Assembly (NCBI GenBank): GCA_025454475.1
Contig: JALOOJ010000011.1
Location: forward strand, 1-53,110
Direction: 5' to 3'
DNA from: Anaerolineae bacterium
Lineage (GTDB): Bacteria > Chloroflexota > Anaerolineae > B4-G1 > SLSP01
Length of the DNA stretch: 53,110 bases
Shown: positions 9,701-37,954 of the stretch, piece after piece
Layout: each line of letters opens with the position of its first letter
How positions within the stretch are numbered: the first letter of the stretch is position 1
Made by a program: the position numbers and the translations under genes
Notes under the pieces: model-generated
Told to the model about the DNA's origin: nothing
What the model saw: the letters and a program-made list of their open reading frames with translations, nothing else
Database searches by the model: none

Positions 9701-9721
9701 GTCGGAGCCGCTCGGAAGCGG
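9701..9721 (+). repeat. CGGA mini-hairpin repeat, copy identical to 19807-19827
   Basis: A 21-base string is repeated exactly at 19807-19827 inside another gene. Its right part, CCGCTCGGAAGCGG (9708-9721), is a 5-bp hairpin with a CGGA loop, the consensus unit of the mini-hairpin family in this window. Confidence 0.7.
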
Positions 9722-12666: not shown

Positions 12667-13680
12667 ATGACCACACCTTTACTTGAGCTAAAGCATGTCA
12701 CCAAGATCTTCGGCACCAAGAAAGATCAGACGGTGGCGCTGGATGATATGACCCTTGCCCTCAATGAGACCTTCCCAAAAATCATCACCGTCGCCGGCGA
12801 GAGTGGTAGCGGCAAGTCGACGACGGGGATGCTTCTACTGGGTTTCTATGGGCCCACGATGGGTGAGGTGCTCTTCCGTGGGCGGCCCTTGTATGAACTT
12901 AAGGGGGCCGACCTATTCCAGTTCCGACGTGACGTCCAGGCGGTCTTCCAGGATCCCTTTGCTGTCTACAACCCCTTCTACCTGGTCGACAACCTACTGA
13001 GCATCCCGATCAAGAACTTCAAGTTGGCCAGCTCGAAATCAGAGGCCCGAGAGTTGATGGAGGAAGCGCTCGAACGCGTTGGCCTCCGTCCTGCAGAGAC
13101 ATTGGGGCGTTACCCACACCAGTTGTCGGGCGGTCAGCGACAGCGCATCGCCGTCGCGCGGGCGTTGCTTCTAAAGCCCAAGCTGTTGATCACGGACGAG
13201 CCTGTGTCAATGGTTGATGCCTCCTTGCGTTCGACGATCCTCAAGGCGCTACGTGGGCTAAACAAGGAGTTCGGGACCCCGATCTTCTACATCACGCATG
13301 ACCTGACGACTGCGTATCACATTAGCGATTACATCATCATCCTCTACCGCGGGTCGGTGATGGAGGCCGGCAACGTCGACACGATCATCAAGGACCCGCA
13401 GCATCCATACACGAAGCTCCTGGTCTCCTCGATTCCTTGGCCTGACCCCGATCTCGTGTGGGGCGGCGCCGAGGACATGATCCAGAAGAGCCAGGTGGCT
13501 TTCAAGGCGATCACGGGCTGCAAGTTCGCGCCGCGGTGCCCTTACAGGATGGATATCTGTGACACCAAGCCGCCGGACCTGTACCTACTCGAACGAGACC
13601 GAGCGGCCGCATGTTATCTGAGCATGGACAACGCGGTACTGCCGCGCGAGGAGCTGACCAGTCTCTTCGCTGAGGCATAG
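12667..13680 (+). CDS. ABC transporter ATP-binding protein, DppF/OppF type
   Basis: About 337 residues. Motifs are GESGSGKSTTG (Walker A), VFQDPFAVYNP (Q-loop), LSGGQRQR (signature), LLITDEPVSMVD (Walker B) and YITHDL (switch). The C-terminal extension has CKFAPRCPYRMDIC, again the cysteine pattern of Opp-type ATPases. The frame is open upstream to 12520, but ATG 12667 with GGAGGGG ten bases upstream is the likely start, leaving 32 bases after the previous gene. Last gene of the importer; a five-unit hairpin array begins one base after its stop codon. Confidence 0.93.
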   Translation: MTTPLLELKHVTKIFGTKKDQTVALDDMTLALNETFPKIITVAGESGSGKSTTGMLLLGFYGPTMGEVLFRGRPLYELKGADLFQFRRDVQAVFQDPFAVYNPFYLVDNLLSIPIKNFKLASSKSEARELMEEALERVGLRPAETLGRYPHQLSGGQRQRIAVARALLLKPKLLITDEPVSMVDASLRSTILKALRGLNKEFGTPIFYITHDLTTAYHISDYIIILYRGSVMEAGNVDTIIKDPQHPYTKLLVSSIPWPDPDLVWGGAEDMIQKSQVAFKAITGCKFAPRCPYRMDICDTKPPDLYLLERDRAAACYLSMDNAVLPREELTSLFAEA

Positions 13681-13681
13681 G

Positions 13682-13759
13682 CGGCTCGGAAGCCGGGCGG
13701 TTCAGAAACCGAGCGGCTCGGAAGCTGGGCGTCGGAACGCCTTGGCGGCTCGGAAGCCG
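13682..13759 (+). repeat. Array of five 14-nt mini-hairpins with CGGA/CAGA loops
   Basis: Five units at 13682-13695, 13698-13711, 13714-13727, 13728-13741 and 13746-13759. Each is four stem bases, T, a four-base CRGA loop, A, and four complementary stem bases. Stems are CGGC/GCCG, CGGT/ACCG, CGGC/GCTG (one G-U), GGCG/CGCC and CGGC/GCCG: the sequence changes but pairing is kept, while the loop is constant apart from one G to A. Start-to-start spacing is 16, 16, 14 and 18. The array begins one base after the importer's last stop codon. Confidence 0.8.
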
Positions 13760-13773
13760 AAGGTGCTATCGCG

Positions 13774-13807
13774 GACACTGCGGGGTGCTGGCGCGCCCTG
13801 CAGTGTC
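13774..13807 (+). terminator. Probable terminator of the ABC importer operon
   Basis: GACACTGC-GGGG (13774-13785) pairs with CCCT-GCAGTGTC (13796-13807), a 12-bp stem with one G-U pair and a 10-base loop, followed by the moderately T-rich TTGTATGT. It separates the importer from the radical SAM genes. Confidence 0.55.
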
Positions 13808-13844
13808 TTGTATGTAGGCACCGTGATATGAGGGGAGATGTGTA

Positions 13845-15512
13845 TTGATAGCGGGAAATGTCGGGCGCAACGATCTTTGCCCCTGTGGCAGTGGCAAGAA
13901 GTACAAGCACTGCCACGGACAGCTCAAGCCGCACGGCTTCCAAGCCGCGCGCTCGCAAGCCGCGGGCTCAGGAGCTGGGGCGGATGTGCTGTACGTGCAT
14001 CCAGCCAAGCAGGATGTTGACTTCGGTCATCAGAAAACCTCGATTCAGGCTTCGGAGGACAGCCAGCTTGGGCGTCCCTACGGTCTGATCCCAATGGGTG
14101 TGCCGGCGCTGGTGAATGTGCTCCAGGCTGCCGGTATCCGTGTGCGGGGACTCAACTACCCGCTTGAGCGTGAACTGAACCGGAGCTTCGATCTTCGTCG
14201 TTGGCTGCGGACGCAGCGCCAGGCGCGTGTCATCCTGGTGGATATGCACTGGTACGAGCATAGCTATGGAGCGATCAGTGTGGCCAACGTGTGCAAGGAG
14301 GTCCTGCCGGATGCCTTGGTGGTCCTGGGTGGTCTGACAGCGTCCGGGTTTGCCTACGAGATCCTCGAGCAGTTCCCGTCGGTGGACTTTGTGATCCGAG
14401 GCGATGCGGAGATGCCGCTGCTTACGTTGGTGCAGCGATGCCTCGCTGTTCCCGTCGGCCAGGCAGTTGAGGTCTCGGACATCCCGAACGTGGCCGGTCG
14501 GCGCGGCGCCGATGTAGTCCTGAACCCCATCGGCTACTGTGCCGTCACCGAAGACCTCGATGCTCTCGACTATGTCGATCTGGGGTTCCTCGACCACGCC
14601 ACCGAGTATTACGTCCACGAGTATCTTGTCACCGACCTGCCCAAGGCACGTGCTGCGCTCCAAACGAACCCATTCCTGGGACGCTGGGTGGCGACGGCGC
14701 GGGGCTGCAAGTACGAGTGTTCGTACTGCGGCGGGTGTAAGAGCGCGCATCAAGTGTTGGCCATGCGCGATGGCATCGTGCCGCGCTCGCCCGAGGCCGT
14801 CGTCGCCGAGCTGGAACGGCTTTCGGATGCCGGCGTGGTCCAGGCCTCGCTCTCTTACGATATCGCCGACTGGCGCACTTTCTTCGCGCTGATGCGTCAG
14901 CGCGGCATCAAGATCGGGCTCTACAATGAGTGCTTCCAGCTCCCGACGCCGACCTTCGTCAAACGGTTTGCCCAGGTCGCGGATTCGGAGCACTCCTGCC
15001 TGGCCTTCAGCCCGCTGTCAGGCGACGAGCGGGTTCGTAGGCTGAACGGCAAGATCTTCACCAATGGCGAGCTGATCAATGTTCTGGATTCGCTGAACCT
15101 TTACGACATCTTCGCCCTGGTTTACTTCTCGTTGAACCTGCCCGGTGAGACGATGGATACGCTCAAAGAGTCGATCGCGCTGGCTGAGAGGCTGTGCGAG
15201 CTGTACCCATTGGCGCAGACGCCGGGCCCTCGACTGCGTATAATGAACTCGTGCCACACGCTGGATCCGCTGTCACCGATGGCGGTTCACCCCGAGAAGT
15301 TCGGGATCAGTGTGACGATGCAGACTTTCAACGACTGGTATACTTACTGCCGTGAGACACAGACAGGCAGTCCTGCGGCGCGCACTGAGTTGTTCCGCGG
15401 GTTTGTCTTGTCTGACGAAGCGGCCCGCTCTCTGGAAGCGATGGCGAATGCCTGGGACGCAGCGCAGCGGGGTCACGAGGATTGTTGGTGGCCCATCCCG
15501 CCCGGTTGGTGA
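13845..15512 (+). CDS. Cobalamin-binding radical SAM protein with N-terminal SEC-C motif
   Basis: A 555-residue protein. Residues 8-25 form a SEC-C zinc motif (CPC, then HCHG; Cys 12, Cys 14, Cys 23, His 24). A low-complexity linker encoded by mini-hairpin repeats follows (about 30-47), then a B12-binding-like Rossmann domain (about 47-200, with LGGLTASGF and VIRGDAEMPLL), then a radical SAM domain whose CxxxCxxC cluster ligands are Cys 288, 292 and 295, with a neighbouring Cys 298. TTG 13845 is the likely start, after GGGGAGA. It is paralogous to the next gene over the B12 and SAM parts, including the ending WWPIPPGW. Substrate unknown; B12-radical SAM enzymes methylate or rearrange carbon skeletons. 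Confidence 0.85.
   Translation: MIAGNVGRNDLCPCGSGKKYKHCHGQLKPHGFQAARSQAAGSGAGADVLYVHPAKQDVDFGHQKTSIQASEDSQLGRPYGLIPMGVPALVNVLQAAGIRVRGLNYPLERELNRSFDLRRWLRTQRQARVILVDMHWYEHSYGAISVANVCKEVLPDALVVLGGLTASGFAYEILEQFPSVDFVIRGDAEMPLLTLVQRCLAVPVGQAVEVSDIPNVAGRRGADVVLNPIGYCAVTEDLDALDYVDLGFLDHATEYYVHEYLVTDLPKARAALQTNPFLGRWVATARGCKYECSYCGGCKSAHQVLAMRDGIVPRSPEAVVAELERLSDAGVVQASLSYDIADWRTFFALMRQRGIKIGLYNECFQLPTPTFVKRFAQVADSEHSCLAFSPLSGDERVRRLNGKIFTNGELINVLDSLNLYDIFALVYFSLNLPGETMDTLKESIALAERLCELYPLAQTPGPRLRIMNSCHTLDPLSPMAVHPEKFGISVTMQTFNDWYTYCRETQTGSPAARTELFRGFVLSDEAARSLEAMANAWDAAQRGHEDCWWPIPPGW
13934..13976 (+). repeat. Mini-hairpin units inside the radical SAM linker
   Basis: CGGCT-TCCA-AGCCG (13934-13947), GCT-CGCA-AGC (13951-13960) and GGCT-CAGG-AGCT (13965-13976) are three variant units with loops about 15 bases apart. 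They lie in frame between the SEC-C motif and the B12 domain, so they are translated as Ala/Gly/Ser/Gln-rich linker. Confidence 0.5.
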
Positions 15513-15591: not shown

Positions 15592-17193
15592 GTGGGCGAA
15601 GTACCCATAAGTAGTCCGCTGCCGCCCGGCAGTCCGCTGCAGCCCGGCAGTCCGCTGCCGCTAGCTCTGTACGTCCACCCTGCCAAGCAGGCGGTGGAAC
15701 TCTATGACTCACCGGTGCGCCGGAGATTCGGCCGTCCCTACGGGTTGATCCCGATGGGTGTGCCTGCGCTGATGAATATGCTCCAGGATAACGGCATCCC
15801 CGTCAAGGGCATCAACTTCCCGATGGAGAAGAGGATCAACCTCGATTTCAGCCTCACTGACTGGTTCTCCAGCCAGCAGCAGGCGCGACTGGTGCTGATC
15901 GACCTGCACTGGTACGAGCATAGCTATGGTGCCATCAGTGTTGCCAAGTACGCCAAGCGGGCGCTGCCAAACGCTTGGGTCATCATGGGAGGGCTGACAG
16001 CGTCGGCGTTTGCGGCTGAGGTCATCCGTGACTATCCGGAGGTGGATTTCGTGCTGCGCGGTGATGCTGAGGTTCCGCTCCTTGCATTGGCCAAGGCGCT
16101 GATCGCGGAGACTCGGCCCGGTGCCCTGCCCGATCTGTCCCATGTGCCGAATCTGACGTACAGGCGAGGTGGTCGGCCTGGGGGGCAGGTTGTCGAGAAC
16201 CCGCGGACGTTCTGCGCGTCGCCTGAGGACTTCGCGCGTTACAACTTCATCGACCTCGACTGGCTGGAGCACCAGGACGACTACTTCGTCCACGAGTATC
16301 TGGTCATCGATATGCAGTTGGCCGAAGATGCGCGCCAGGGTATGGATGTCAGCAGATACCGTGGTCGGTGGATTACCACAGCCCGCGGCTGCGACTATGA
16401 GTGCTCTTACTGTGGGGGGGCCAAGAGCGCGCACAAGGCCATTGCCGGACGGAACGGTGTCGTGCCGGTCCCCGTGGAGACGGTCGTGAGTCAGATCAAG
16501 CAACTGATCGAGCATGACGCGATCCAGGTGTGCTTTTCGTACGACCTCGCGGCGCTCGGCGAACGGTACTGGAAGGACCTCTTCCGGACGATCCGCAAAG
16601 AGGGCATCAAGATCGGGCTCTATAACGAGTTCTTCCAGCTTCCCCCATCGGGCTTTATGCGGGATTTTGTGCGCACCGCGGACATGGAGCATTCGAGCGT
16701 GGCGTTGAACCCGTATTCGGGATCGGAGCATGTGCGGCGCCTGAACGGCAAGCGCTATGGCGATGCTGAGCTTTTCAACGCACTGGACGAGGTGAACCTC
16801 TACAACGTCCCGATCATCGTGTACTTTTCGCTGAATCTACCGGGTGAGGACGAAGCTGCGCTCCAGGAGTCCATCGCCCTCGCGCAGACGATCTACGACA
16901 CGTACCCGCACTCAAAGCTGAAGATCCTCAACTCGTGCCACACGGTGGAGCCGATGTCGCCGATGGAGCAGCGGCCCGGGCGCTACGGCGTCAACGTGCA
17001 GTGGCATACCTTCAAGGACTGGTACGAGTACTGCCGGAACACGCAGGTGCAGTTACCAGGCTCGCGTACGGGGGAATGGCGCGGATTCGACATCATCGCA
17101 CCTGCCGAGCGTTCCATTGAGGCGATGGCAGATGCCTGGGATGAGGCTGCGACAGGCAAGCCGGCCTGGTGGCCGATCCCCCCGAGCTGGTAG
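15592..17193 (+). CDS. Cobalamin-binding radical SAM protein (paralog of the preceding gene)
   Basis: A 533-residue paralog lacking the SEC-C motif. The first 25 residues are a repeat-encoded linker (SPLPPG, SPLQPG, SPLPLA), followed by YVHPAKQ, the B12-binding-like domain (IMGGLTASAF, VLRGDAEVPLL) and the radical SAM domain with cluster ligands Cys 267, 271 and 274. Long stretches are shared with the upstream protein (HWYEHSYGAISVA, GIKIGLYNE, LNSCHT, the WWPIPP ending), so the pair arose by duplication. GTG 15592 follows AGGAGG by six bases. The pair may act together or on related substrates. No SPASM-type extra cluster domain is visible, which argues against a sulfatase maturase. Confidence 0.85.
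   Translation: MGEVPISSPLPPGSPLQPGSPLPLALYVHPAKQAVELYDSPVRRRFGRPYGLIPMGVPALMNMLQDNGIPVKGINFPMEKRINLDFSLTDWFSSQQQARLVLIDLHWYEHSYGAISVAKYAKRALPNAWVIMGGLTASAFAAEVIRDYPEVDFVLRGDAEVPLLALAKALIAETRPGALPDLSHVPNLTYRRGGRPGGQVVENPRTFCASPEDFARYNFIDLDWLEHQDDYFVHEYLVIDMQLAEDARQGMDVSRYRGRWITTARGCDYECSYCGGAKSAHKAIAGRNGVVPVPVETVVSQIKQLIEHDAIQVCFSYDLAALGERYWKDLFRTIRKEGIKIGLYNEFFQLPPSGFMRDFVRTADMEHSSVALNPYSGSEHVRRLNGKRYGDAELFNALDEVNLYNVPIIVYFSLNLPGEDEAALQESIALAQTIYDTYPHSKLKILNSCHTVEPMSPMEQRPGRYGVNVQWHTFKDWYEYCRNTQVQLPGSRTGEWRGFDIIAPAERSIEAMADAWDEAATGKPAWWPIPPSW
15613..15665 (+). repeat. Three tandem 18-bp repeats encoding Ser-Pro-Leu linker
   Basis: AGTCCGCTGCCGCCCGGC (15613-15630) recurs at 15631-15648 with one change and partly at 15649-15665. 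Each unit encodes SPLPPG or a variant. CTGCC-GCCC-GGCAG inside the repeat is again a 14-nt hairpin, in the position where the paralog carries its own hairpin-derived linker. Confidence 0.8.
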
Positions 17194-17212
17194 CATCCAC
17201 ACTTCGCAAGGT

Positions 17213-17244
17213 CACCGACTCCGGTCGGCACCGACTCCGGTCGG
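17213..17244. repeat. Two tandem 16-bp mini-hairpin units
   Basis: CACCGACTCCGGTCGG occurs twice without a gap, with a third partial copy starting at 17245. Each holds CCGAC-TCCG-GTCGG, a 5-bp hairpin. Read on the minus strand the loop is CGGA, as in the other units, and the 16-base period equals that of the array at 13.7 kb. Around it are shorter repeats of TTCGCAAGGT (17202-17211 and near 17333). Confidence 0.7.
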
Positions 17245-17365
17245 CACCGACCAGAGTTCAGGACTCTGCGAAGGGTTCCGCGGCGCCATTGGTGCGGCAC
17301 TGCTTATGAGCCTCGCGAAGGTCCAGCATCCTTCGCAAGGTGAGTCGTCTACGCCGTGAAGCGCC

Positions 17366-17393
17366 TTGCCTGCGTGCCTCTTTGTGCTGTAAT
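17366..17393 (+). promoter_or_regulatory. Candidate sigma70 promoter for the 1,145-residue protein gene
   Basis: TTGCCT (17366-17371) and TGTAAT (17388-17393) are 16 bases apart, about 30 bases before the ATG at 17424. A moderate match. Confidence 0.45.
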
Positions 17394-17423
17394 AGGCCCA
17401 TTCTCTCTCACCTAGAGGACATA

Positions 17424-20400
17424 ATGGCCATCCCTGACCATGCCGGAAAGAGCCACCACGCCCTAAACGCACTGCTCTTTGCCAGCGCCAACGCGTCCGT
17501 GCACTTCGCGCTCCATTGTCTGGAGCCCGTGGGCCGTAATCTGCGGTCCAAGTCCACCTTTGTCGATCCGAACGGCGACGCAATGCACTGGCATGACTTC
17601 GGCGACCTGGAGGGCCCGGGATGGGCGTCCAACGCGATCGGTGGGGCCTGTCTCATCGCCCGTTGGGCCCGCTTCCTGGGTGACGAGCAGATACTCTCGC
17701 AGGCGCTCAGTATGGCCGACCACGTGCTGGACGACGGATTCGTGCGTCCAGATGGCTTCATCTGGCCATATTGGAACCTGGCTGAGGGCCGATTCTGTCT
17801 GAACTACACGCATAGCAATGACTGGCTCTGTCCGGGGTCGCTGGCCAGGGTCGGCGTGCAGATGCTGGAGCTTGCCGATCTCTTGGAAGCCTGGGGGAAG
17901 TCCTCAGCTCACGCCACAGCGCTCCGCCGAACCGCGGATCGCCTCGGTAGCTGGTTGGCCACGAAGGTTCCGCTGCTCCCCAACGGCTGGGTCCCACGCC
18001 GTATCACCCTTGAGGGTGAGCCCTATCCCCTAAGTCCGGAGGGCGGCAGGGACGTTATCCACGATCACAGCGCCGATGGGTTATTCCTCCTCGAGCTCTG
18101 GACCCGCCTTGGTCGTCACGATCTAGCCCCACAGCTGGGTGAGGCCTTCGTCTCCGCCGGTGGGTTCTGGGGCAGCATCAACCACGATACCTACGACGAT
18201 CACGAGAATGTCGCCTATGCCGTCGCCTTCCGCGTCCTTCGCGAGGGCGCGGACGTGTTGGGCCAACCGCAGTGGCGACGATTTGCCTATGACGTCGCGC
18301 TGCCTGCGATGGCGCGGTTCCGGATGGATCAGGACGAGCACGGCGTCGTGACCCAGGGCCTATTCTGGATGGAACAGAGCTGGGACACGGCTTACCTCTG
18401 GGAGAATGCCGAGGTCGCGCAGGCGCATCTGGACGCGTGGTTGGAGTGCGGTGATGTCGGGTACCGCGATGTGGCTCTGGCGACGCTAGGGGCGATCGCT
18501 CACCATCACTACGGTCCCCTTGGATTTCTGACAGAGGGGATCGACTGGAACAACCACATCAGTCAGCGGCACCATGCAGAGTTCGCCTACTACGGTGCGA
18601 TTCGCTACACCGAGCCTCTGCTGAACAATCTGCATCTGGTCGGACCTACGCTCACGTACCTTGAGGCGCAGGGGGGCAACCGGCCTGCGGATGTGTCGCT
18701 GGGTGCTAGCTTGGGAGTTCTCTCGGCCTGGGCACCTGCGCGGATGGGGCGGGATAACGTCGTGCCTACCATAGGGCGGTACTTACTGCGACTGTACCAT
18801 CCGGCGATCGCGACGGACCCGGGTGTCGCAGCCGCGATTGAATTCGCGCACGAGGCAGGGATCGATGGCGTTCTCCTCTTCGAGGCGAGCTACGACATCG
18901 ATCCGGCTCTGCTATCCTTGGATGTGCTTCGCTTAAGGTTTGAACGGCTCAAGGCGATCGTGCCGCGATTCCGAGAAGCCGGGCTCGAGGTTCACATCAA
19001 CGTGATGATCACGATGGGCCACGTTGACGCCGGCGGAGGACGGCCCGAGGACTTCCCGTTCCAGTTCCTGGTCGATGCGGATGGCAACCGGTCTCGGTCA
19101 ACGGCGTGCCCTCTCGACCCGGCATTCCTGGACACCATCCGGCAGCTCTACACCTGGGCGGCTGAGTGCGACGCTGATGTTCTCTGGGTTGATGACGATG
19201 TGCGGTTCCTCTATCACGACGTGCCAGCAATGACCTGCTTCTGTCCCTTGCATCTGTCCGAGATGGCCACGCGCACCGGGAGGGCGTGGACGCGTGAACA
19301 GTTGGCGGTGGCTCTGGCAGAGGATGGCGAATCGCTGGCCGTCAGAACGGCATTGCGCAAGACGTGGCTCGGCCTTCAGTCCTCAGCGATCGAAGGACTG
19401 GCGGCGCAGGTCGCGTCTGCGGTCCGCGGTAGCTCATACGCGCGTTCTGCCCCCGAGCCGGCGATCGGCCTGATGAGTGTGGGAACTGCGATACACAACG
19501 CTGAAGGGCGTCGAGTGGATAGCTTGTTGCGGATCCTCTCCGGATCGGCGCCGCTCCTGCGTCCAGGCTCAGGCTTCTGGCATGACTGGGAGCCCGGTGC
19601 CGTCCTCGCAAAGTCCGAGGACGTCGCACGGCAGGTCGCCTACCTCGGTAGCGATGTGCGAGTTGTCGCTGAGATCGAGAACCACCCCTATTCGCCGTTC
19701 CAGAAGTCGCGGCGCATCCTGGCGCTTGAACTCGCGCTCAATGTCCTGGCGGGGACACACGACCTGAGCTTGAACCTTTTCAGCGGTACGATGCCTTTCG
19801 ACGCTGGTCGGAGCCGCTCGGAAGCGGGCAGCCGCCGCTCGGAATCGGGCGACGTAGGGCAGGACTATGCCACCTTTCTCAGGTCGCAGAAGCCCTTCCT
19901 GCAGGCGCTAGCACTCGCGCGCCGTGGTAAGCGTCGCATCGGCGTCGGCATCGAGGGGCGCGAGGATGTGGCTGAGACAATGCCGGTCGGGGCCGCTCAG
20001 AAGTGGGCGGTTGGAACCGGGAAGCCAGTCGACGCCGGGAAGGCAGCTGACCGCAGTCTGATGACTCTGGTGGAGTCCCGTCCATGGGAGTTGGCCCTGT
20101 CGCGGATGGGCCTCCCTGTCGGCACGCTGTACGATGCGCCGCATCTATGGGCGGGCGATACTGCCTATACCGATCGCTATGCCATCGCGAGTGCGCTGCA
20201 GGAGGGAGTCGTGTTGACGCCGCTAGCGGTGCGTGGGCTCCTGGAGCAGGGGTGGGGCGAGCGTCTGGGTATCCTCGATGTGCTCCCAGCGCCGCCTGGG
20301 GTCAACGAGGTCTTCGCCAGGGGCCCGATGAACGAGGGGCACTATGGAGCCTGCCTCCCGGTGCGCCATTACGCGGCTCAGCTCGGGCCGCATACCTGGA

Positions 20401-20861
20401 CCCTAACTGGCGCCACAGCGTGCAGAGTGCTATCGGAGTGGGTCGGTCTCGATGGGGTCACGCTTGGTCCGGCGACAGTTGCACTCGAGCTTGCCAATGG
20501 TGATCGCCTTGGGCTGCTGCCGTTTGAGATCACGACAGTACACCCGGCGCTCTTGCAGCCGGCGCGTCGAGATCAGTGGGCGGCTCTGCTAGCCTGGGTG
20601 GCCAAGGGGCCGTTGCCGTTACGTGTCTTTGAGGGCGTTAACCTCGTGCCGCAGGTATTTGCCTCGCCCGGGCGCGAGGAGATGCTTGTCGCGATCGCTA
20701 ACCTGTCGGCCGATGATGGTCTGGCAAGGCTTGACGGACCGGCGTTGGCAGGCTTCAGGGCCGTCGAGCAGCTGACGCCGGAGGGTGCATGGGTGCCGCT
20801 GACATTCACTGGCGCTGTGTCCGTGGTCGCCTGGTCGGTCGTGGTGCTGCGGACCAGATAG
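17424..20861 (+). CDS. Multidomain carbohydrate-type protein (helical toroid plus TIM-barrel-like domain)
   Basis: About 1,145 residues, not assignable to one family. The first 400 residues look like an alpha/alpha-toroid (repeated helices with NHDTYDDHENVAYAVAFR, FWMEQSWDTAYLWENAE), as in uronyl hydrolases or epimerases. Residues of roughly 450-850 suggest a TIM barrel with the acidic strand VLWVDDDVRFLY, as in several hydrolase clans. The rest is beta-rich. Two linker regions, encoded at about 19807-19848 and 19993-20019, consist of mini-hairpin repeats translated as Arg/Ser/Gly- and Gly/Lys-rich stretches. No signal peptide is seen, so it may work inside the cell on imported sugars. ATG 17424 follows GAGGA; the longer frame from 17340 would include the promoter. 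Confidence 0.6.
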   Translation: MAIPDHAGKSHHALNALLFASANASVHFALHCLEPVGRNLRSKSTFVDPNGDAMHWHDFGDLEGPGWASNAIGGACLIARWARFLGDEQILSQALSMADHVLDDGFVRPDGFIWPYWNLAEGRFCLNYTHSNDWLCPGSLARVGVQMLELADLLEAWGKSSAHATALRRTADRLGSWLATKVPLLPNGWVPRRITLEGEPYPLSPEGGRDVIHDHSADGLFLLELWTRLGRHDLAPQLGEAFVSAGGFWGSINHDTYDDHENVAYAVAFRVLREGADVLGQPQWRRFAYDVALPAMARFRMDQDEHGVVTQGLFWMEQSWDTAYLWENAEVAQAHLDAWLECGDVGYRDVALATLGAIAHHHYGPLGFLTEGIDWNNHISQRHHAEFAYYGAIRYTEPLLNNLHLVGPTLTYLEAQGGNRPADVSLGASLGVLSAWAPARMGRDNVVPTIGRYLLRLYHPAIATDPGVAAAIEFAHEAGIDGVLLFEASYDIDPALLSLDVLRLRFERLKAIVPRFREAGLEVHINVMITMGHVDAGGGRPEDFPFQFLVDADGNRSRSTACPLDPAFLDTIRQLYTWAAECDADVLWVDDDVRFLYHDVPAMTCFCPLHLSEMATRTGRAWTREQLAVALAEDGESLAVRTALRKTWLGLQSSAIEGLAAQVASAVRGSSYARSAPEPAIGLMSVGTAIHNAEGRRVDSLLRILSGSAPLLRPGSGFWHDWEPGAVLAKSEDVARQVAYLGSDVRVVAEIENHPYSPFQKSRRILALELALNVLAGTHDLSLNLFSGTMPFDAGRSRSEAGSRRSESGDVGQDYATFLRSQKPFLQALALARRGKRRIGVGIEGREDVAETMPVGAAQKWAVGTGKPVDAGKAADRSLMTLVESRPWELALSRMGLPVGTLYDAPHLWAGDTAYTDRYAIASALQEGVVLTPLAVRGLLEQGWGERLGILDVLPAPPGVNEVFARGPMNEGHYGACLPVRHYAAQLGPHTWTLTGATACRVLSEWVGLDGVTLGPATVALELANGDRLGLLPFEITTVHPALLQPARRDQWAALLAWVAKGPLPLRVFEGVNLVPQVFASPGREEMLVAIANLSADDGLARLDGPALAGFRAVEQLTPEGAWVPLTFTGAVSVVAWSVVVLRTR
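19807..19848 (+). repeat. Mini-hairpin repeats within the 1,145-residue protein gene
   Basis: 19807-19827 is identical to 9701-9721. It contains CCGCT-CGGA-AGCGG (19814-19827); a second unit with one mismatch lies at 19835-19848. The insertion is in frame and encodes an Arg/Ser/Glu/Gly-rich stretch unlike the flanking protein. Confidence 0.7.
19993..20019 (+). repeat. Second mini-hairpin cluster within the same gene
   Basis: CCGCT-CAGA-AGTGG (19993-20006, one G-U pair) and CGGT-TGGA-ACCG (20008-20019) form adjacent hairpins, encoding a Gly/Lys/Val linker. Loops vary by single bases from CGGA. Confidence 0.55.
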
Positions 20862-22525: not shown

Positions 22526-23635
22526 TTGACTGATCTGTTCTCGCCCGGATCATTGGGCCGGCTCTCCCTGCCCAACCGCATTGTGCGCTCCGCCACGGCG
22601 GAGCGCATGGCCGATGATGAGGGTCGCCCGCGGCCTGCGCTGGCTCAGCTCTACCAAGCGCTCGCGAGCGGTGGCGTGGGCCTCATCATCTCGGGCCATC
22701 TGTATGTTGATCCCGGTGGCAAGTGCCATCCCGAGATGACCGGGATCTATGATGACAAGCTGATTGGTGATCTGTCAACGGTAGTGGACGCGGTGCACGC
22801 GGCTGGCGGGCGTGTCGCAGCCCAGATCAACCACGGCGGGGCGCAGTGCAGCTCTGAGACCGTGCCTGAGCCTGTCGCGCCGTCGGACATCACTGCGGAC
22901 TATCTTCAGCAGCCCGCTCGCGGAATGACGGAAGCTGAGATTCTGCAGGTGATCCGCGCGTACGCTCACGCTGCTCGCCGAGCCAGGCAGGCAGGTTTTG
23001 ACGCGGTGCAGCTCCACGGAGCCCACGGCTATCTCATCAACCAGTTCCTGTCGCCTTTCACCAACCGGCGTTCGGACAGTTGGGGCGGCGATCTGACTGG
23101 GCGTATGCGCTTCCTGCGCGAGATCTGCAGTGCAGTGCAGGATGCTACCGGACCGGATTACCCAGTCTTCATCAAGCTGGGAATGGTGGATGCGGTCAGA
23201 ACCGCAGTCGCAACCGGCGTGGAGGATGGCCTCACGCTGGAGGAAAGCCAGTCGGTCGTGGCTGAGCTAGAGAGCATGGGGCTGTGCGGCGTCGAGGTGA
23301 GCGGCGGCATTGGCAATACCAGCAGCCGTATGCGCATACGGAATCCAGAGGATGAGGCCTACTTCCGCGACCTGGCCAGAGCAGCCCGCGAAGTGACGCG
23401 CCTGCCGATCATGCTGGTGGGCGGGTTGCGTTCGCGGCAGGTGATGGAGGACGTACTGGAGTCTGGCGATGCCGATTTCGTGTCCCTATGCCGGCCCCTG
23501 ATCTCCGAGCCTGATTTGCCCCGACGCATGGAAGCGGGGCAGGAGCGCTCCGCGTGTATCTCGGCCAACCGCTGCTGGCCCCAGGCGCCGAACGAGGGTA
23601 TCGCCTGCCGGTGCACCGTTCAGCGGAGTGGCTGA
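22526..23635 (+). CDS. NADH:flavin oxidoreductase, Old Yellow Enzyme family
   Basis: About 369 residues forming the FMN-binding TIM barrel of the family: SLPNRIVRSAT at the start, QLHGAHGYLINQFLSPFTNRR in the active-site region (the paired histidines bind the substrate carbonyl), and the phosphate-binding VGGLRS near the end. It ends with CISANRCW then GIACRC; relatives with a C-terminal cluster use CxxCxxxC, and here the second cysteine is alanine. It reduces activated C=C bonds or acts on related enones. TTG 22526 follows GGAGG by five bases. Likely co-transcribed with the cytochrome upstream and the glycosyltransferase 21 bases downstream. Confidence 0.88.
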   Translation: MTDLFSPGSLGRLSLPNRIVRSATAERMADDEGRPRPALAQLYQALASGGVGLIISGHLYVDPGGKCHPEMTGIYDDKLIGDLSTVVDAVHAAGGRVAAQINHGGAQCSSETVPEPVAPSDITADYLQQPARGMTEAEILQVIRAYAHAARRARQAGFDAVQLHGAHGYLINQFLSPFTNRRSDSWGGDLTGRMRFLREICSAVQDATGPDYPVFIKLGMVDAVRTAVATGVEDGLTLEESQSVVAELESMGLCGVEVSGGIGNTSSRMRIRNPEDEAYFRDLARAAREVTRLPIMLVGGLRSRQVMEDVLESGDADFVSLCRPLISEPDLPRRMEAGQERSACISANRCWPQAPNEGIACRCTVQRSG

Positions 23636-37940: not shown

Positions 37941-37954
37941 CGGGTCGGAACCCG
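37941..37954 (+). repeat. Single CGGA mini-hairpin between ABC-2 genes
   Basis: CGGG-T-CGGA-A-CCCG fits the consensus unit exactly, with its own stem. It lies 14 bases after the ATPase stop and 15 before the permease start. Confidence 0.65.

Follow-up and report, generated by a model that had tools for sequence, protein, structure and literature searches.

Very small mobile repeats are reportedly present in bacterial chromosomes as the small dispersed repeats of cyanobacteria described by Elhai in 2008, which are said to form sequence-conserved families. REP elements are tagged with GTAG or CGTC (PMC3733652) and propagate as sequence families, and the IS200/IS605 enzymes, which are related to TnpA-REP, act on the lagging-strand template (PMC6006769). 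In the Anaerolineae genome studied here, an array of minute hairpins with a fixed loop and a variable stem provides a case to be compared with these systems.

The window, that is, the whole 53,110-nt stretch of contig JALOOJ010000011.1 that was analysed, contains five 14-nt hairpins of the form N4-T-CRGA-A-N4' (N4-TCRGAA-N4') at positions 13682-13759 on the + strand, as the first-pass annotation had reported, and the array does start one base past the stop codon (13678-13680) of an oligopeptide ABC transporter ATPase gene (12667-13680, + strand; PF00005, PF08352), for which orthologues were found. The T-CRGA-A core is common to the five units, and the four outer pairs vary: unit 1 (13682-13695) reads CGGC-TCGGAA-GCCG, unit 2 (13698-13711) CGGT-TCAGAA-ACCG, unit 3 (13714-13727) CGGC-TCGGAA-GCTG with one G.T wobble in the stem, unit 4 (13728-13741) GGCG-TCGGAA-CGCC followed by TTGG, and unit 5 (13746-13759) CGGC-TCGGAA-GCCG. 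Folded as single-stranded DNA, units 1, 2, 4 and 5 each give a 5-bp hairpin and unit 3 a 4-bp one. The array is absent from the orthologous loci in five related genomes, and the heptamer GCATAGG directly 5′ of unit 1 is also carried by the empty orthologue L097. On the 3′ side lies a strong terminator-like 16-bp hairpin (13773-13808, + strand), and since similar hairpins are kept in L097-L099, it is older than the array.

Abundance was assessed in about 1 Mb of the same genome, comprising 644 kb not chosen for hits and a later 354 kb drawn once the pattern was fixed and lying in part on contigs already known for composites. Within the 644 kb, CGGA and CAGA were the two most over-represented of all 3-6 nt loops on stems of at least 5 bp, and TCGGAA (24 seen vs. 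1.3 expected, p = 2e-22) and TCAGAA (17 vs. 1.05, p = 3e-15) led all 4096 hexamer cores in hairpins with 4-bp stems. The later sample again placed TCGGAA first among cores, with TCAGAA third by p-value, and contained 19 perfect units vs. 0-3 in its Markov-shuffled copies. The enrichment over shuffled sequence, on which the first-pass annotation had made its interpretation depend, is therefore present; the hairpin unit is spread genome-wide, and the array is not a local tandem duplication only. Extrapolating the sample rates, with about 1.3 Mb of the genome read, gives an estimate of some 250-300 perfect units per genome. Another hexamer core, ACTACG/CGTAGT, was also enriched in 4-bp-stem hairpins of the first 644 kb (10 vs. 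1.35 expected, with five stems).

For the covariation test, sites were chosen by the core TCRGAA and a G at both -1 and -7, pairing not being a criterion. All four stem positions were paired in 38 of the 138 sites, vs. 0-3 when the partner arm was slid by 1-3 and a mean of 3.5 (maximum 11, n = 2000) in arm shuffles. Every stem position shows all four Watson-Crick types, and the fifth position outward pairs at background level. The sequence of the stem is thus free, but its length is fixed. Together with the core counts in the 644 kb and 354 kb, this establishes that the covariation around a fixed loop, first proposed from the five units of the array, is real. Stems are diverse throughout, with 12 among the 24 TCGGAA and 8 among the 17 TCAGAA hairpins of the 644 kb, and 14 among 38 isolated units. 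The unit can be described as a 14-nt hairpin of 5 bp, with a T-A closing pair, a CRGA loop and a 5′ G at its foot. Isolated units have G at -1 in 43/51 cases and G at -7 in 41/51, positions -7 to -5 often being GAC or GAT, and when both G's and a non-C at +1 are demanded, TCGGAA counts 48 and TCAGAA 35, with the next core at 5.

Copying at the DNA level can be followed in a nested composite, GCCGTCAGA[GCCGGTCAGAACCGG]ACGGC, in which a 15-mer unit stands inside another unit, giving 29-34 nt in total. At no more than 3 mismatches, 25 copies occur in this genome and none in 39 relatives; they are dispersed near-identical sequences in unrelated contexts, and they show that a defined short piece has been copied as DNA. 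Relative to the host unit, the inserted 15-mer has two new arms, and a stem arm copied from the host flank was therefore rejected as its source. A viral carrier was likewise rejected, the composite pattern having no exact match in IMG/VR. The composite copies retain G at -7 (0.77) despite differing upstream 7-mers, which, along with the GCATAGG of the empty L097, suggests that the G context is a target preference and not part of the element.

The pattern GCCGGTCRGAACCGG has 48 matches in this genome, 4 in the related genome G003 and at most 2 in any other of 396 genomes of the class, among which no expansion of the tested stem was found, and units are also rare in the rest of the genus. A RecJ-like ORF (L082:17416-17480) has a linker, GHQNAS, repeated from 18-nt hairpin units, and this linker array is extra sequence relative to the G004 orthologue; the relatives compared are not close enough to give base-exact insertion junctions for isolated units. 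Insertion at empty sites is shown by these comparisons, and the empty orthologous sites and the copied composite family support the earlier suggestion that such units can spread as DNA. We consider the chances about even that the array is a cluster of a lineage-specific mobile micro-palindrome recognised by structure and inserted into the single-stranded lagging-strand template by an enzyme.

Replication slippage and template switching at small hairpins might instead create, repair and multiply the units locally, without a transposase. Template switching is a documented route to make and keep perfect stems (PMC8794818), and a mutational origin of this kind accounts for the perfect covarying stems and for tandem arrays, which have periods of 15 and 18 nt, and could also yield a replication-strand bias. 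Nevertheless, it leaves unexplained why one loop and one -7/-1 G context recur at unrelated sites, why the stem ends at exactly 5 bp and how the composite came to be copied to 25 scattered sites, and we regard it as unlikely, though by no means negligible.

The orientation of the units with respect to replication bears on the remaining explanations. Genes and skew were derived with a simple codon-usage gene finder, and in 44/53 stretches the genes of the two strands agree in their GC skew at 4-fold sites, so that the skew tracks replication. With the leading strand inferred from GC skew in this fragmented MAG, unit clusters fall 43:8 on the leading vs. the lagging strand (p = 7e-7), 11:0 in the later sample, and leading-strand orientation holds in 22/25 contigs. 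The leading strand becomes the template of the lagging strand in the following round of replication, and the bias is the one that IS200/IS605-like transposition would produce. Like the exact stem length, the conserved G's at -1 and -7 and the nested composite, this orientation goes beyond the first-pass annotation, which had no means of seeing it. Taken with the fixed loop, the free stem and the wide scatter, the nearly uniform orientation suggests a minute mobile DNA recognised by shape rather than by sequence.

A polar DNA site selected by the host and acting on the lagging-strand template, in the manner of KOPS, Chi or primosome-assembly hairpins, would likewise show strong orientation with replication, and it would be in keeping with the conserved loop, the flanking G's and the copy number of 250-300 estimated per genome. 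However, rarity in the other genomes of the genus is unexpected for a host replication function, several loci carry copies as insertions, arrays of them occur, and unit clusters are over-represented between genes (odds ratio 3.9), which makes such a site improbable. An element acting in RNA, with mRNA hairpins bound by a protein that reads the loop, has a similarly slight chance of being correct. A fixed loop with a variable stem is typical of RNA-protein sites, and in-gene clusters are sense rather than antisense by 22:6, but the in-gene antisense units are still on the leading strand by 5:1, and 24/25 of the sense units with usable skew are on the leading strand, as against only about 60% of genes. 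Furthermore, the whole array folded as one RNA does not form the five separate hairpins, and an Rfam search at the array gave no match up to E = 1. Targets of CsrA/RsmE were considered separately and rejected, given that CsrA (PF02599) has no match in this genome and CAGA loops do not contain GGA. That local tandem duplication or chance palindromes are the whole explanation is barely credible: some isolated matches are probably due to chance, such as L082:12914, which translates to KEAFGKAL, a seemingly ordinary conserved protein motif, and L068:3321, which aligns to its orthologue without an indel, but adjacent units carry different stems, and the explanation is refuted by the enrichment, repeated in a second genome sample, and by the covariation test made without selection for pairing.

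If the units are a mobile palindrome, the unit would fold on the single-stranded lagging-strand template, where an enzyme reading fold and loop would move or copy it by single-strand insertion, in the manner of IS200/IS605 enzymes (PMC6006769). The preferred target would have a G six bases ahead of the foot G (G-A/C-Y-N-N-N-G), drift of the stem would be tolerated as only pairing would be read, and template-switch repair, with one arm correcting the other, might help stems to stay paired. More tentatively, and with less than even confidence, we propose that the 14-15 nt hairpin could itself be transposable, read by its fold and loop only, served by an enzyme and inserting in the single-stranded lagging-strand template after the above motif, which would place it among the smallest mobile DNA elements described. 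The element is probably a selfish one that the host tolerates mostly in intergenic DNA and in protein linkers.

The first-pass annotation had suggested looking for a Y1 (TnpA-REP, RAYT) transposase conserved with the units, and such an association was not found. The genome has two PF01797 (Y1) matches. The full-length Y1 gene lies on a 4.6-kb contig that has no CRGA unit, and the 3.5 kb read at the other match has none either. The full-length gene is flanked by GTAG-type repeats, and RAYT was rejected as the driver of the units. Several points weigh against a mobile palindrome: no candidate enzyme is linked to the units in these two surroundings, the search for a target-site duplication gave no signal, and a single genome carries many different stems, unlike REP families, which copy one sequence. 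The distance of the relatives compared and the use of GC skew in a fragmented MAG to assign the leading strand count on the same side. At L209:2391-2906 and in its flanks (G000:C332), the PF01797 transposase stands among GTAG-type repeats (GTAGCCCGG..GATGAAGTC..CCGGGCTA); to all appearances this is a REP/RAYT system of a Chloroflexota MAG.

Further units lie elsewhere in the window. Between genes there are an isolated CCGC-TCGGAA-GCGG at 9708-9721 (+ strand) and a CGGG-TCGGAA-CCCG at 37941-37954 (+ strand), the latter between two co-directional genes. The in-gene unit GCGG-TCAGAA-CCGC at 23192-23205 (+ strand) is extra sequence relative to the G002 orthologue (L147/L101), which is shorter there. 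The ORF at 17340-20861 contains an isolated unit at 19338-19351 (+ strand) and another at 19814-19827 (+ strand) with degenerate copies up to 20006, which are undatable by comparison, the orthologues being too distant. Adjacent B12-binding radical SAM proteins are encoded at 13845-15512 and 15592-17193, the first of which combines a SEC-C motif at its N terminus with a hypervariable linker. A degenerate unit, CGGC-TTGGAA-GCCG (13934-13947, - strand), lies in this linker between the SEC-C motif and the B12/radical-SAM part, and the same linker in the G003 orthologue contains two units of its own. At 17210-17250, tandem CCGAC-TCCG-GTCGG hairpins with a period of 16, closed by C-G and not by T-A, possibly represent a related loop on the - strand.

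The units also supply proteins with short additional linkers, as in RecJ and the SEC-C/B12 radical SAM protein. Covariation is commonly read as proof that an RNA is functional; it can also mark DNA elements, with the shape probably read on single-stranded DNA. The statistical signature of this unusually small unit, consisting of a fixed loop, a free 5-bp stem and replication polarity, could serve as a handle for finding an enzyme that processes single-stranded DNA.

The cyanobacterial small dispersed repeats are, like the units, very small repeats of a bacterial chromosome; they are reportedly mobile but belong to sequence-conserved families in another phylum. REP/REPIN elements with TnpA-REP (RAYT) are likewise small dispersed palindromes, clustered and often species-limited (PMC3116915, PMC3733652, PMC6006769). 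However, REPs measure 21-65 nt vs. 14-15 nt for the unit, keep one stem consensus per genome where the stem sequence here is free, and have a Y1 gene with copies nearby (GTAG type), whereas the units have no linked Y1 gene. The GTAG/CGTC foot tag is also absent from the units, positions -4 to -1 being variable (GACG in 4, CGAG in 4 and CTTG in 3 of 38 units picked with G at -1). The ends of IS200/IS605 are hairpins read by shape on single-stranded DNA with a lagging-strand template bias (PMC6006769), a shape reading that we infer here; the units differ in that no transposase gene, paired left and right ends or guide tetranucleotide was identified. Yeast GC clusters have AG or ACT repeats on their flanks, whereas no target-site duplication was seen for the units. 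Mobile palindromic elements (DHE, GC cluster, SDR) are recognised by presence or absence at orthologous sites, which is observed for the units, and by dispersed near-identical copies, which are observed for the composite. Fungal mitochondrial double-hairpin elements and GC clusters are, like the units, short hairpin-forming sequences of sporadic occurrence (Paquin 2000 in PMC7218506; PMC4478555), and GC clusters merge and shuffle as the composite does here (PMC4478555). The units differ in residing in a bacterial chromosome and in consisting of a single hairpin, and the fungal mitochondrial double-hairpin elements and GC clusters are the closest to them in behaviour (PMC4478555).
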